Below, piece after piece: positions 5,454 to 12,270 of a DNA stretch of 35,462 nucleotides. The position numbers and the translations under genes were made by a program. The stretch is from contig SHXK01000010.1 of NCBI GenBank assembly GCA_009693335.1, positions 1 to 35,462 of the forward strand. Reading direction: 5' to 3'. This stretch comes from Betaproteobacteria bacterium (GTDB lineage: Bacteria > Pseudomonadota > Gammaproteobacteria > Burkholderiales > SG8-39). Below the pieces are notes generated by a model. It did no database searches. It saw only the letters and a list, made by a program, of their open reading frames with translations, and had not been told where the DNA came from. How positions within the stretch are numbered: the stretch's first letter is position 1; each line of letters starts with the position of its first letter.

Positions 5454-6287
5454 TCATGTACGCCAGATCCTGGGTTCGCTTGCTTCCCGACCACTAAGCG
5501 CGGGACGCAGAATGCGCCAAAGCGCGATGAAATAATGCCGCGCCGCTTCGCTCGAATCACCGAGGTAGCGGGCAAGCAGGATTCCAGGCAGCAACGTCAC
5601 CGCGCCATAACCTTCTTCGGGTTTTGTCTTTCGAGTTTCATTTAAAAGCGCCTGATTCAAATTGAGTGCGCACGCAAACAAGCTCCCAAATATCGGCTTG
5701 CCCGCCAGTCCCGCGGGCGATTCCAGCAAGCGACTCCCGCCGTCGATGCGTCCACGCTCCAGCCATAACAGCTTGCCCTCGCGGCGGATCTGCGTCGAGG
5801 TGCAGAATGTTCCGCGCGTGAACTGCTCCCCCGAACCGCTGCGCCCCAAGCACACAATATCCCAGCCGATCAAGCCAGCGTCAGCGCCGAGATTCACCTC
5901 ATATTCCGTCTGCACCAGTGCGCCATCAAACACGATCGTTTCCTGTGGCAGCCACTCGAGCATCCCGTTCACGTTGAACGCCACGTTTTGCCTCGCCCAC
6001 GGTCCTGCCGACCGGTACCACTTCGCCGCGCCAGGGGTCGTCAAAAGGACCGACCCATTTTTTTCCGCGCTTACTTTCAGAGTTAATTCATCTCCGCCGG
6101 CAATCCCTCCGGGCGGGTGCACCACTATCGCGTGGCAGATCTCGGCGCCTTCCGGGTACAGAGGCTTCTGCACTACCAGGGGGCCGTCGTGATCCCTTTC
6201 CGAAAGAATTGTCCTGCCGTCAGAAAATGAGAAACCAAGCGAAAGGCGCGCCTTCCAGGGACTGGCCAGCGGCTCGGTAACCTTCAT
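5454..6287 (-). CDS. ureD: Urease accessory protein UreD
   Basis: 277 aa; HPPGGIAGGDELTLKV, TTPGAAKWYRS motifs. Confidence 0.95.
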   Translation of the reverse strand: MKVTEPLASPWKARLSLGFSFSDGRTILSERDHDGPLVVQKPLYPEGAEICHAIVVHPPGGIAGGDELTLKVSAEKNGSVLLTTPGAAKWYRSAGPWARQNVAFNVNGMLEWLPQETIVFDGALVQTEYEVNLGADAGLIGWDIVCLGRSGSGEQFTRGTFCTSTQIRREGKLLWLERGRIDGGSRLLESPAGLAGKPIFGSLFACALNLNQALLNETRKTKPEEGYGAVTLLPGILLARYLGDSSEAARHYFIALWRILRPALSGREASEPRIWRT

Positions 6288-6294
6288 CCGAAGA

Positions 6295-6987
6295 TCATAC
6301 TGCCAGCAGTCCCTTGACGCCGTCCTTCTCCATGTTGGCGCCTGAACCGCGTTTTACTATTTCTCCGCGATCCATGACGAGATACTGGTCTGCGAGGGAG
6401 CGGGCGAAATCGTAGTATTGTTCCACCAGCAGGATCGCCATGTCACCGCTGGCGGCAAGCGAGCGGATGGCGCGTTCGATGTCCTTGATGATCGAGGGCT
6501 GGATGCCCTCGGTGGGCTCGTCCAGGATAAGCAACTTGGGGCCCATCGCCAGGGCGCGTCCGATGGCGAGCTGCTGCTGCTGGCCTCCCGAGAGATCACC
6601 GCCGCGCCGCCACAGCATCTGGTTCAACACCGGGAACATCTCGAAAATCCGTGGCGGAACGCGCTCGCTGCGCGGGCGCGTCGCCAGGCCCATCACCAAG
6701 TTTTCCGCCACGGTAAGGCGCGCGAAGATCTCGCGGCCCTGGGGCACGTAGCCGATCCCGGCGCGCGCACGCTCGTAGGGCTTGGCGTGCGTGATGTCCT
6801 GGTCGAACAAAATAACCTCACCCGTCCTAGCGGGAATTAGCCCCATCAGGGTCCTGAGCAGCGTGGATTTTCCCACCCCGTTGCGGCCGAGCAATACGCT
6901 CACCTTGCCGGGGGGAATCTCGAAGCTGAGGTTTCTGAGGATGTGTGAGCCACCGTAGTACTGATTGAGATGTTTTACGGAAAGCAT
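6295..6987 (-). CDS. urtE: Urea ABC transporter ATP-binding protein UrtE
   Basis: Walker A GRNGVGKSTLL, signature LSGGQQQQLAIGRAL, LDEPTEGIQPSII; position in the urt cluster. Confidence 0.94.
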   Translation of the reverse strand: MLSVKHLNQYYGGSHILRNLSFEIPPGKVSVLLGRNGVGKSTLLRTLMGLIPARTGEVILFDQDITHAKPYERARAGIGYVPQGREIFARLTVAENLVMGLATRPRSERVPPRIFEMFPVLNQMLWRRGGDLSGGQQQQLAIGRALAMGPKLLILDEPTEGIQPSIIKDIERAIRSLAASGDMAILLVEQYYDFARSLADQYLVMDRGEIVKRGSGANMEKDGVKGLLAV

Positions 6988-6989
6988 GC

Positions 6990-7802
6990 CTATCTGCCCA
7001 GATAAACTTCGATCACTTTCGGATCGTTCTGTACCTTGCTCATCGAGCCCTCGGCGAGCACGCTACCTTCGTGCAGCACAGTGACCTTGCGCGCTATTTT
7101 CCCGATGAACGCCATGTCGTGCTCGACCACCACCAGCGAATGCTTGCCGGCGAGCGACAGGAACAGCTCGCCGGTGCGCTCGGTTTCCTCTTCGCTCATG
7201 CCCGCTACCGGCTCGTCCAGCAGCAGCAACCGCGGCTCCTGCATCAGCAACATACCAATCTCGAGCCACTGCTTCTGGCCATGCGACAGCAGACCCGCAA
7301 TGCGATCGGAGCTATCGTCCAATCGAATTTTTTTCATCGTTTCCGCGATTGAATCTTTTTCGCTTGAAGACAAAACGGAAAAAAGGGTCTTGCGCACGCG
7401 CTTATCAGCCTTCATCGCCAGCTCCAGGTTCTCGAACACGCTGTGGTGCTCGAAAATGGTTGGCTTCTGGAATTTTCGGCCGATGCCGGCGTGGGCGATC
7501 TGCGCCTCCGACAAGCGCGCCAGGTCGATGGACTGGCCAAAGAACGCGCTCCCCTGGTCAGGGCGTGTCTTACCGGTGATCACGTCCATCATGGTGGTCT
7601 TGCCGGCGCCATTGGGACCGATCACGCAGCGCAGCTCGCCGACGTCGATCGACAAGGTCAGCTTGTTCAACGCCTTGAAGCCATCAAATGAGACCGAGAT
7701 GTCCTCCAGGTAGAGCACCACGCCATGCGTGGCGTCCAGACCCTCAGTGGCGAGGTGTCCGAAAACGCCGCTCTCGTTCACCGTGGCCACGCTGGTGGTC
7801 AT
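6990..7802 (-). CDS. urtD: Urea ABC transporter ATP-binding protein UrtD
   Basis: GPNGAGKTTMMDVITGKTRP, LSHGQKQWLEIGMLLMQEPRLLLLDEPVAGM. Confidence 0.95.
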   Translation of the reverse strand: MTTSVATVNESGVFGHLATEGLDATHGVVLYLEDISVSFDGFKALNKLTLSIDVGELRCVIGPNGAGKTTMMDVITGKTRPDQGSAFFGQSIDLARLSEAQIAHAGIGRKFQKPTIFEHHSVFENLELAMKADKRVRKTLFSVLSSSEKDSIAETMKKIRLDDSSDRIAGLLSHGQKQWLEIGMLLMQEPRLLLLDEPVAGMSEEETERTGELFLSLAGKHSLVVVEHDMAFIGKIARKVTVLHEGSVLAEGSMSKVQNDPKVIEVYLGR

Positions 7803-8878
7803 TTATTCTTCCTCAGCAGGCCCATCACGCCCTGCGGGAGGAACAGGGTCACGAAGATGAAGATCAAGCCCAGCGCGTAGAGCCAGTACTCCGGGAAGGC
7901 TTGGGTGAAGAAGCTCTTGGCATAGTTCACCAGCCCAGCGCCGAGGATCGCGCCGCTGAGCGTGCCACGGCCGCCGACCGCGACCCAGATCGCGATCTCG
8001 ATCGAATTGGCGGGCGACATTTCGCTCGGGTTGATGATGCCAACCTGCGGTACATAGAGCGCCCCAGCGATGCCGCAGATCATCGCCGAGAGCACGAAGA
8101 TGGCGAGCTTGTAGTACACCGTGTTGTAGCCGCAGAAAGCGACGCGCGTTTCAGCGTCGCGGATCGCGGTCAGCACGCGGCCGAATTTTGAGGTCACGAT
8201 CCAGCGACCGAGCAGCAGCGTGCCAATTAGCGCCGCGCCGGTCAGTGTGAACAGAATCATGCGCGTTTCGGGGGTTGTGATCGGCAGGCCGAGGATGCTC
8301 TTGAAGTCGGTAAAGCCGTTATTGCCGCCAAAGCCGGTGGCGTTGCGGAAAAATAGCAGCATCGCGGCGAAGGTCAACGCCTGCGTGATGATCGAGAAAT
8401 ACACGCCCTTGACGCGCGAACGGAAGGCAAAGAAACCGAACACCAACGCGAGCAACCCCGGCACCAACACGACTAACAACAGGGCCCACCAGAACTGGTC
8501 GGTATACCACCATTGCCACGGCAATTCCTTCCAGTCGAGGAACACCATGAAATCGGGCAGGTCCGACTGGTACTGACCCTCGCGCCCGATCTGGCGCATC
8601 AGGTACATGCCCATGGCATAGCCGCCGAGAGCGAAAAACAGACCGTGCCCGAGCGACAGAATCCCGGTGTAGCCCCATACCAGATCCATGGCGATGGCCA
8701 CGATGGCGTAGCACATGATTTTCCCGATCAAGGTAACCCAGTACTGCGAAACATGGAACGTGCTGTCCTGGGAGACGACAAGACTCAGGATCGGAACAAT
8801 GACAAATACGGTAAGAGATGCAAGGCCGACAAAAAACCAATCCCTCATTGTGTAGATGCGACCAAACACGACACTCAT
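7799..8878 (-). CDS. urtC: Urea ABC transporter permease UrtC
   Basis: MSVVFGRIYTMRDWFFVGLASL...YTGILSLGHGLFFALGGYAMGMYLMRQIG. Start at 8878 (overlapping urtB) rather than the 594-aa ORF start. Confidence 0.94.
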   Translation of the reverse strand: MSVVFGRIYTMRDWFFVGLASLTVFVIVPILSLVVSQDSTFHVSQYWVTLIGKIMCYAIVAIAMDLVWGYTGILSLGHGLFFALGGYAMGMYLMRQIGREGQYQSDLPDFMVFLDWKELPWQWWYTDQFWWALLLVVLVPGLLALVFGFFAFRSRVKGVYFSIITQALTFAAMLLFFRNATGFGGNNGFTDFKSILGLPITTPETRMILFTLTGAALIGTLLLGRWIVTSKFGRVLTAIRDAETRVAFCGYNTVYYKLAIFVLSAMICGIAGALYVPQVGIINPSEMSPANSIEIAIWVAVGGRGTLSGAILGAGLVNYAKSFFTQAFPEYWLYALGLIFIFVTLFLPQGVMGLLRKNK

Positions 8879-10449
8879 GCTTCCACCGCTCTTCCCTTCA
8901 CGGCGAACAGTCCCTGCGGCCGGCGTTGGATGAAAATGATGATGAAGACAAGCACCATGATCTTGGCGATCACCGCGCCGGAGACTTCTTCGAGAAACTT
9001 GTTGGCGAAGCCCAGCGTCAGCGCCGCGTAGACGGTGCCCGCCAGCTGACCGACACCACCAAACACCACCACCATGAACGAATCCACGATGTAGCCCTGG
9101 CCAAGGTCGGGGCCGACGTTGCCGATCTGCGAGAGCGCGCAGCCGGCCAGCCCGGCGATACCCGAGCCGAGGCCGAAAGCCCACATGTCCACCAGGCCCG
9201 TAGGCACACCGACACAGGAAGCCATGGCGCGGTTCTGCGTCACGCCGCGCACGAACAGCCCGAGCCTGGTTTTGGTGAGAAGCAACCACATGGAAATCAA
9301 GACTGCAATGGCGAAGGCGATGATCACCAGGCGGCTCCACGGCAGCACCACCCCCGCGAACGCATGGATCCCGCCGGACATGAATGCTGGGTTCTCCACC
9401 TGCACGTTGGCCGCGCCGAAGACGGTACGCACTGACTGGATCAGCATCAGGCTGATGCCCCAGGTCGCGAGCAGCGTCTCCAGCGGCCGGCCGTAGAGCC
9501 AACGGATCACCACGCGCTCGAGGAGCATGCCCACCGCCGCGGCGACGATAAACGATACTGGCACTGCCAGCAGCAGATACCATTCGAAAAAATTTGTTTT
9601 CCTGAAAAGAATCTGCACGACGTACGTCGCATAGGCGCCAATCATGATCAACTCGCCGTGCGCCATGTTGATGACGCCCATCAGTCCGTAGGTGATCGCT
9701 AGCCCAAGCGCCGTCAGCAGCAGGATCGAGCCGAGCGAGATGCCCGCGAACAGCAGTCCGGCGCGCTCGCCCCAGGCGAGCTTGCCCTGCACTTCACGCA
9801 GGCTCTTCTGCGCCGCGAGGCGAATGTCGTCGTCCGCATCGGCGGCCGCTTGCGCGAGCAGCGTACGGCTATTCGGGCTGTTCGATTCCCCCAGCCGCTG
9901 GATCGCGGCGAGGCGTGTTTCCTTGTCTCCACTATGCATCTCCATCGACGCCGCCGTGAGTTCAAGCAGCAGTTTGATGTCGGAGTCGGTCTCCTTCTCC
10001 AGAGCTTTCTTTACCAGCGGCAGCATCGCCGCGTCGGCGCCGCCGGCTAGCGCCTTCGCCGCCGCTAGCCGCGTGGGGCGCTCGGGGGAGAGCAATTTGA
10101 AAGCCGCCAGCGCGCCCTCGATCTCGCGCCGCAGCCGGTTGTTGGCGACCACGTCCTCGCGGCCCTCAGGTAGCGGCGCGACCGCTTCGCCGGTAACGGC
10201 GTCGATCCCCTGTCCGCCCTTGACGATCAGGATACGCTTGCCTGCGCTCTGCATGTCGCCTTCCGACACCGCTTCGAGCAGCGCCGCAGCATGTGGATCG
10301 CCTTCGGCCAGTAGCGCCGCAATCGATGCGCTGCGCTCATCGGCGTCTCCAAACGCGAGCTTCTCGACAGCCGTCTTGTCGATCGCGAACGCCGGAGCGG
10401 CCGGGCTGGCCGATGCGCACAGGAGTAACGCGAATAGAAGGGTTTTCAT
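8875..10449 (-). CDS. urtB: Urea ABC transporter permease UrtB with long N-terminal extension
   Basis: Permease part ALGLAITYGLMGVINMAHGELIMIGAYATY; about 230-residue N-terminal signal peptide plus helical-repeat-like segment. Confidence 0.94.
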   Translation of the reverse strand: MKTLLFALLLCASASPAAPAFAIDKTAVEKLAFGDADERSASIAALLAEGDPHAAALLEAVSEGDMQSAGKRILIVKGGQGIDAVTGEAVAPLPEGREDVVANNRLRREIEGALAAFKLLSPERPTRLAAAKALAGGADAAMLPLVKKALEKETDSDIKLLLELTAASMEMHSGDKETRLAAIQRLGESNSPNSRTLLAQAAADADDDIRLAAQKSLREVQGKLAWGERAGLLFAGISLGSILLLTALGLAITYGLMGVINMAHGELIMIGAYATYVVQILFRKTNFFEWYLLLAVPVSFIVAAAVGMLLERVVIRWLYGRPLETLLATWGISLMLIQSVRTVFGAANVQVENPAFMSGGIHAFAGVVLPWSRLVIIAFAIAVLISMWLLLTKTRLGLFVRGVTQNRAMASCVGVPTGLVDMWAFGLGSGIAGLAGCALSQIGNVGPDLGQGYIVDSFMVVVFGGVGQLAGTVYAALTLGFANKFLEEVSGAVIAKIMVLVFIIIFIQRRPQGLFAVKGRAVEA

Positions 10450-10502: not shown

Positions 10503-11792
10503 TTACTTCTTCTTTTCTGCCATCAGCGCGGGCTCGTCCTTTTTCTTGTCGTTGCCCGCGATGTACGGGCTCCAAGGCTGCGCCTTGACCGGGCCCTTGG
10601 TCTTCCAGACTACATTGAACTGGCCGTCGGCCTTGATCTCGCCGATGAACACCGCCTTGTGCAGGTGATGGTTCTTCGCGTCCATCGTGGAGGTGATGCC
10701 CGATGGCGCAGTGAAGGTCTGGCCGCCCATTGCCGCGGTCACCTTCGCCACATCAAAGCTCTTGGCCTTCTCGACCGCCTGCTTCCACATGTATATGCCG
10801 ATGTAAGTCGCTTCCATCGGATCGTTGGTCAGCGCCTTGTCCTTGTGGCCAGCGACGTTCTTCGTTTTGGCATAGGTCGCCCACTTCTTGGTGAACGCAT
10901 CGTTCGCCGGGGCCTTGATCGACATGAAGTAGTTCCACGCCGCAAGGTGGCCGACCAGCGGCTTGGTGTCGACCCCGCGCAGTTCTTCTTCGCCGACAGA
11001 GAACGCCACCACCGGCACGTCGGTCGCCTTCAAGCCCTGATTGCCCAGTTCCTTGTAGAACGGCACGTTCGAGTCGCCATTGATGGTCGAGACCACTGCC
11101 GTCTTCTTGCCCTCTGACGCAAACTTCTTGATCTTGGCGATGATGGTCTGATAATCAGAGTGCCCGAATGGCGTGTACTCCTCCATGATGTCGGCATCGG
11201 CGACGCCCTTGGACTTCAGGAACGCGCGCAGAATCTTGTTGGTGGTGCGCGGATAAACGTAGTCGGTGCCCAGGAGCACCCAGCGCTTGGCCGTACCGCC
11301 GTCCTTGGACATCAGGTATTCCACCGCCGGGATCGCCTGCTGGTTGGGCGCTGCGCCGGTGTAGAACACGTTCTTCGAGATTTCCTCTCCTTCGTATTGC
11401 ACCGGGTAGAAGAGCAGACTGTTGAGCTCTTCAAACACCGGCAATACAGATTTGCGCGATACCGAGGTCCAGCAGCCAAACGTAACGGCGACCTTGTCCT
11501 GCGTGATCAGTTGACGCGCTTTCTCGGCGAACAACGGCCAGTTAGAAGCCGGATCGACCACCACGGGCTCGATCTTCATGCCCAGTACGCCTCCCTTGGC
11601 ATTGATTTCGTCGATCGCCATCAGCACGGTGTCCTTGAGAACTGTCTCGCTGATAGCCATCGTGCCCGACAGCGAATGCAGCACCCCGACCTTGACTGTC
11701 TTCTGTTGCGCGTTGAGGCTGTTTGAACCTAAGCCGATGGCAGCAATCGCTGCCGTCAAGGCCAACTGCTTGATGAAGATTCTTCGTTTCAT
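10503..11792 (-). CDS. urtA: Urea ABC transporter substrate-binding protein UrtA
   Basis: MKRRIFIKQLALTAAIAAIGLGSNSLNAQQKTVKVGVLHSLSGTMAISE; ATG at 11792 preceded by AGGGGA. Confidence 0.95.
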   Translation of the reverse strand: MKRRIFIKQLALTAAIAAIGLGSNSLNAQQKTVKVGVLHSLSGTMAISETVLKDTVLMAIDEINAKGGVLGMKIEPVVVDPASNWPLFAEKARQLITQDKVAVTFGCWTSVSRKSVLPVFEELNSLLFYPVQYEGEEISKNVFYTGAAPNQQAIPAVEYLMSKDGGTAKRWVLLGTDYVYPRTTNKILRAFLKSKGVADADIMEEYTPFGHSDYQTIIAKIKKFASEGKKTAVVSTINGDSNVPFYKELGNQGLKATDVPVVAFSVGEEELRGVDTKPLVGHLAAWNYFMSIKAPANDAFTKKWATYAKTKNVAGHKDKALTNDPMEATYIGIYMWKQAVEKAKSFDVAKVTAAMGGQTFTAPSGITSTMDAKNHHLHKAVFIGEIKADGQFNVVWKTKGPVKAQPWSPYIAGNDKKKDEPALMAEKKK

Positions 11793-11795
11793 TGC

Positions 11796-11842
11796 ATCCC
11801 CTGTGTGGTTGAACAAACCGCTTGGCTGTTTGCACAGGGGAT
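11796..11842 (-). promoter_or_regulatory. 10-bp perfect inverted repeat spanning the urtA leader, one arm overlapping the Shine-Dalgarno
   Basis: Plus strand ATCCCCTGTG (11796-11805) and CACAGGGGAT (11833-11842); nested 5-bp stem 11814-11818 / 11828-11832. Confidence 0.7.
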
Positions 11843-11844
11843 AG

Positions 11845-11860
11845 AGCAACAACTGTGCCC
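11845..11860 (-). promoter_or_regulatory. Candidate sigma-54 (RpoN) -24/-12 promoter of the urt-ure operon
   Basis: Minus strand GGGCAC-AGTTG-TTGCT; GG and GC dinucleotides separated by 10 bp; predicted start about 11834, 42 nt before the urtA ATG. Confidence 0.75.
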
Positions 11861-11874
11861 GTTGCCATGGCAAC
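11861..11874. repeat. 14-bp perfect palindrome GTTGCCATGGCAAC
   Basis: Read directly; abuts the upstream side of the sigma-54 box. Confidence 0.7.
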
Positions 11875-12077
11875 ATTTAGCATCTTGTTTTATATAGATA
11901 TTTCTTTCCTCTCTGCATGAACATCGAAAAGGGAGCGCACCAATTCAGGGCGCACGCTTGTGTCGATGCACCATTGCATGGCGAAGGCGCCTCAGCAAAT
12001 CGCCCCGCCCATTGCGTCTCGGGCAGTTCAAGCTCATGGGCGTCGGCCGCATGCCGGGTGATCGGCACCTGCGTCGT

Positions 12078-12146: not shown

Positions 12147-12160
12147 GCGAAGACTCTCCG

Positions 12161-12253
12161 CGATCGATCGCCGATCTCGCTGGGGATGCGGCCATCAGCG
12201 CCGCCCACATCGCCGAAGCGATTCAGTATCGGCGGCTGGACGCGAGTTTTTGA
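12161..12253 (+). pseudogene. 3' fragment of comM/yifB (Mg-chelatase-like AAA ATPase)
   Basis: Frame read by hand: RSIADLAGDAAISAAHIAEAIQYRRLDASF*, matching the typical ComM C-terminus (...RVARTIADLAG...I...HVAEAIQYRR). No upstream ComM sequence found in frame. Confidence 0.7.
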
Positions 12254-12270
12254 AGTTATATTGATTGCGG

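Follow-up and report, generated by a model that had tools for sequence, protein, structure and literature searches.

Does the leader of the urea transporter gene urtA couple the choice of promoter to translation? The question is raised by a 35,462-nucleotide stretch of DNA from a Betaproteobacteria bacterium (contig SHXK01000010.1; hereafter the window), which carries genes for urea uptake and urease on its minus strand. urtA (10503-11792, start ATG 11792-11790) encodes a urea ABC transporter substrate-binding protein that begins MKRRIFIK and matches TIGR03407 with 595.8 bits. It is followed by urtB (8875-10449, TIGR03409), urtC (7799-8860 with a provisional start codon, TIGR03408), urtD (6990-7802, TIGR03411), urtE (6295-6987, TIGR03410) and ureD (5454-6287, PF01774), and then by the urease genes ureC (4803-3106), ureE (3157-2534) and ureG (within 2145-1279), all on the minus strand. 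At its N-terminus UrtB is extended by about 230 residues, in which a HEAT-repeat match (PF13646) is found. The next gene upstream of urtA, apaH, is divergent, with its start at about 12271. A sequence-only reading of the region between them had proposed that a sigma-54 promoter overlaps an inverted repeat able to hide the urtA Shine-Dalgarno sequence (SD), so that the promoter used would decide whether the transcript is translated. On the evidence below, urtA likely has an ordinary NtrC-activated sigma-54 promoter, with the repeat a coincidence specific to this lineage.

The promoter element, GGGCACAGTTGTTGCT, lies on the minus strand at 11860-11845. It combines GG-N10-GC spacing with a GGCAC/TTGC context, and the exact 10-bp distance from GG to GC is present as the sequence-only reading had described it. 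Because the C at -12 is position 11846 (the -12 GC occupying 11847-11846), the transcript is predicted to start at about 11834, a position that may shift by a few nucleotides. The bare pattern is not significant on its own: with at most one mismatch it matches the 2.06-Mb genome 55 times, against 66 matches for a reversed control, and its window-wide count shows no excess. The significance of the promoter comes from its conservation across the family, the bare pattern carrying no weight. Among 49 urtA upstream regions from the same family as the window's genome, with the site required at a leader-like distance, 48 contain an equivalent -24/-12 site scoring at least 13.5 of 16, compared with 89 of 4900 shuffles (1.8%). 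GGCA and TTGC are invariant in an alignment of the urtA upstream regions of close relatives. Such conservation argues that the sigma-54 promoter before urtA is almost certainly real; urtABCDE should be transcribed from it, and so, probably, should the ure genes next to them.

A 14-bp perfect palindrome, GTTGCCATGGCAAC, lies directly upstream of the -24 element at 11861-11874; the aligned relatives do not show it in this form.

A scan for the NtrC dyad pattern (TGCACC-N5-GGTGCA, expected about 100-150 bp upstream) identified an NtrC-like enhancer site, CGCCCTGAATTGGTGCG, on the minus strand at 11952-11936, centred at about -110 (p 0.04 against shuffles), and a second, weaker NtrC-like site, CGCCATGCAATGGTGCA, on the same strand at 11983-11967, centred at about -141. 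A terminator-like match at 11955-11935 proved to be the NtrC-like dyad and was discarded. Such dyads are enriched at p<0.05 in 83% of the family's urtA upstream regions. The genome also encodes rpoN (PF04552, 218 bits) and ntrC (TIGR01818, 685 bits against an NCBIfam cut-off of 558.6). Conservation, NtrC-like sites and the presence of both regulator genes strongly support the sigma-54 promoter; from these observed elements we infer NtrC binding, the start site and nitrogen control at urtA.

Control of urea uptake by NtrC and sigma-54 is already known. The urt genes belong to NtrC regulons in several Proteobacteria (PMC5343134). According to the relevant parts of two reports on Paraburkholderia phymatum, the RpoN-dependent urea transporter genes are preceded by a high-scoring RpoN site (PMC5979394) and an rpoN mutant is unable to use urea (PMC5748707). 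The likeness to Bphy_2251 of that species lies in a -24/-12 site before urea transporter genes, in NtrBC/RpoN encoded in the genome and in urease genes nearby. The P. phymatum system differs in that those same parts of the two reports (PMC5979394, PMC5748707) make no mention of an SD-masking inverted repeat, and the urtA promoter described here is known from sequence alone.

Eighty further Burkholderiales urtA loci divide into 29 with a sigma-54 site and 51 with none. The palindrome TACGCC-N4-GGCGTA is found 79-145 nt before the start codon in 37 of the 51 loci without a sigma-54 site, in one of the 29 with such a site, and in 4 of 10,200 shuffles. These counts suggest that Burkholderiales urtA genes have two nearly exclusive promoter types, the palindrome apparently replacing the sigma-54 site in other members of the order.

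The inverted repeat over the urtA SD was confirmed, with both arms and the SD where they had been placed. The 5′ arm, ATCCCCTGTG, occupies 11842-11833 on the minus strand (about -8 to +2) and is mostly outside the sigma-54 transcript. The 3′ arm, CACAGGGGAT, occupies 11805-11796 on the same strand and contains the SD AGGGGA (11802-11797). The two arms form a perfect 10-bp inverted repeat with a loop of 27 nt. Perfect repeats of at least 10 bp arose in 61 of 20,000 dinucleotide shuffles of the 68-nt leader (p about 0.003), and the window as a whole contains 5 such repeats against 3.2 +/- 1.9 expected from shuffles. The repeat is unremarkable by count; its position alone is striking. A dispersed element carrying the arm was ruled out because the 2.06-Mb genome holds ATCCCCTGTG four times, counting both arms, and a 10-mer is expected there about four times by chance. 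As a perfect dyad with one arm overlapping the transcript start, the repeat could also be a DNA-level operator, its half-sites flanking the start and bound by a repressor. The half-site is, however, not over-represented in the genome, the 27-bp gap between the arms is long, and the arms are not conserved in relatives, which makes an operator very unlikely.

Folding of the two transcript forms agreed with what had been proposed for them, the SD being predicted to open about 8-10 kcal/mol more easily without the 5′ arm. The calculated cost of opening is 3.4 kcal/mol when transcription begins at 11834 or 11831, 9.4 kcal/mol when it begins at 11840 and 11.5-12.9 kcal/mol when it begins at 11842 or further upstream; the SD is predicted to be partly paired even in the short sigma-54 form. 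Among 72 sigma-54 leaders, the urtA leader of the window's genome shows the largest change in SD accessibility. Masking of the SD by the 5′ arm thus exists as a predicted physical effect that depends on the predicted start site. Were the real start a few bases upstream, at about 11840-11842, the sigma-54 transcript itself would carry the arm, and the SD hairpin might be an RNA thermometer or the target of a trans-acting regulator. Sigma-54 starts can differ by a few nucleotides around the canonical distance, and a start at 11840 would already bring the opening cost to 9.4 kcal/mol. Such a start would nevertheless have to lie 4-6 nt from the -12 element, below the usual distance; the closest relative has no such arm, and no Rfam family reaches threshold in the leader. 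We consider this alternative very unlikely.

The small hairpin noted at the 5′ end of the predicted sigma-54 transcript (CAAAC 11832-11828 with GTTTG 11818-11814, minus strand) is present, but its stability is no better than that of shuffles (z -1.4, p 0.11). A conserved 5′ hairpin in sigma-54 leaders was rejected as well: over 70 leaders the mean z is -0.65, p<0.05 is reached in 17%, and no common structure emerges.

The Rfam scan of the leader returned only a sub-threshold match, to the narK RNA (RF03032). At 17.2 bits it falls below the gathering score of 43.2. The alignment is full-length, from the -24 GG to the SD, and the first 15 positions of the family are a -24/-12 promoter. The match comes mainly from this promoter rather than from the hairpin of the RNA or the terminator found behind that hairpin in many members, and the RNA part of the match was set aside for that reason. 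The narK motif, whose source is reportedly the work of Weinberg et al. in 2017, has a consensus opening with GGCaCAgcucUUGCU, a -24/-12 promoter (GGCAC-N5-TTGC). After the start comes a CCAACGGCGG-type hairpin, often with a terminator-like GGACAAAGGCGTCC...GGACGCCTTTTT, a portion that we take to resemble NasT/ANTAR leaders. In 150 genomes of the order, RF03032 has 15 matches (L156-L170), each with a -24/-12 site that, as judged by eye, coincides with the start of the match or lies just before it; several of them, again by eye, stand ahead of nitrate-transporter-like substrate-binding proteins. RF03032 joins a DNA promoter and an RNA leader in one family.

If the predicted masking served a function, transcripts arriving from upstream with both arms would be untranslatable and sigma-54 transcripts, starting inside the 5′ arm, would be translated; only the arm-less transcripts being translatable, urtA would therefore be made only when NtrC and sigma-54 are active. 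Several observations favour such insulation from read-through: the geometry of promoter and arm, the gap between 3.4 and 11.5-13 kcal/mol in SD opening, and a perfect 10-bp repeat exactly over the SD, at the low frequency in leader shuffles given above. The relatives speak against it. Conservation of the arms had been named in the sequence-only reading as a test of its own proposal, and the test fails in the closest relative, G004. G004 has the most similar UrtA, at 96% identity, and retains CACAGGGGA from the 3′ arm, but its 5′ region offers no more than a CTCCC/GGGAG pairing. The 5′ arm is missing from G004 and from most of the family. Covariation of arm and SD gave no better result. When 5′ regions and SDs were swapped among 72 sigma-54 leaders, the permutation p at the arm position was 0.0015 with the window's own sequence left out, against 0.0000 and 0.0005 in control windows at -76 and -36. 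Over the 71-72 leaders the arm signal is no better than that of these controls, and because far-upstream positions give comparable or smaller p values it is best taken as a relatedness effect. Within a near group of 14 members p was 0.20.

When the change in SD accessibility of each leader was compared with shuffles of the 14-nt element alone, the window's genome gave p 0.010. A like trend appears in G008 (p 0.015), G005 (0.045) and G001 (0.055), which have shorter or weaker SD-pairing elements in the same place despite a different local sequence. In G004, G009, G006 and G011, from which the SD-pairing element is absent, p was 0.58-0.88, and the mean p over all 71 leaders was 0.50. The seven other genus members combined by hand (Fisher) gave about 0.06, these members not being independent of one another. 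The trend across the genus is a hint, short of evidence for selection. Insulation of urtA from read-through keeps a small share of the probability because weaker elements able to pair with the SD occur there in three of the seven other loci from the genus, and it is judged unlikely. That this uncultured betaproteobacterial genus keeps the region from -12 to the start complementary to the urtA SD, leaving only sigma-54 transcripts translatable, as in a phage T4 gene e-like insulator, appears quite unlikely.

Read-through also needs a source. In G001, G005, G006 and G008 the promoter is closely preceded by the end of an intact class I/II aminotransferase gene read in the same direction, the distance being about 75 nt in G001; PF00155 was matched for G001 and G005, and in neither of these two genomes was a terminator seen in the direction of urtA. 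The gene is a possible source of read-through in G008, G005 and G001, three genomes that show the trend in SD pairing, and it counts in favour of insulation. The window's genome probably holds only a 3′ remnant of it, at 11935-12005. Aligned locally with G001, it reaches a score of 59 where shuffles peak at 43, and the support is clear only against G001, the scores and shuffle maxima being 46 and 47 for G005, 37 and 51 for G004, and 47 and 44 for G008. The genome with the strongest repeat has therefore seemingly lost the obvious supplier of read-through; in addition, apaH is read in the opposite direction, and a search of the stretch between apaH and urtA found no sigma-70-like promoter. The same interval contains, at 12158-12255 on the plus strand, a fragment of a ComM/Mg-chelatase-like C-terminus (PF13335, E 1.8e-6 on 29 aa), probably a gene remnant. 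The promoter-choice switch put forward for this locus is thus upheld in its geometry and folding, and is opposed by conservation, by covariation, by the lack of a sigma-70-like site and by the apparent reduction of the upstream gene to a remnant. A translation switch at urtA is possible, though unsupported as an evolved device.

Phage T4 provides the known case of such a device. In genes e, soc, 49 and I-TevI the stem that masks the SD in long transcripts has a late promoter within its 5′ strand, so that transcripts from this promoter have a free SD; for gene e, translation from the long form is about 100-fold lower (PMC3014915, PMC2988022). In urtA, as in gene e, a regulated promoter would start its transcript too late to include the 5′ arm of the stem that masks the SD, and folding predicts such masking only when RNA 5′ of the regulated start is present. 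If long transcripts exist, the urtA leader would work like that of gene e. The two differ in that the long transcripts of T4 are proven and the structure recurs in related phages, whereas a long urtA transcript is hypothetical and the arm, missing from G004 and from most of the family, shows neither conservation nor covariation beyond control windows in related loci.

In the preferred reading, that of an ordinary sigma-54 promoter, NtrC would occupy the sites at about -110 and -141 under nitrogen limitation and from there activate the sigma-54 polymerase at the -24/-12 element. Transcription would then begin at about 11834 and give a leader of about 42 nt. Because this leader begins without the 5′ arm, we infer that the inverted repeat has no part in its translation. 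An ACTCCC-like pyrimidine tract, common just upstream of the start in the genus, would be complementary to any GGGAG-type SD, and in the window's genome this complementarity may simply happen to reach 10 perfect pairs. The repeat is most likely a lineage-specific coincidence.

As established, the urtA promoter adds one more betaproteobacterial family to those in which NtrC and sigma-54 probably control the uptake of urea. If insulation of urtA were nonetheless true, it would mean that a chromosomal operon shields a sigma-54-controlled gene from the read-through of its neighbours.
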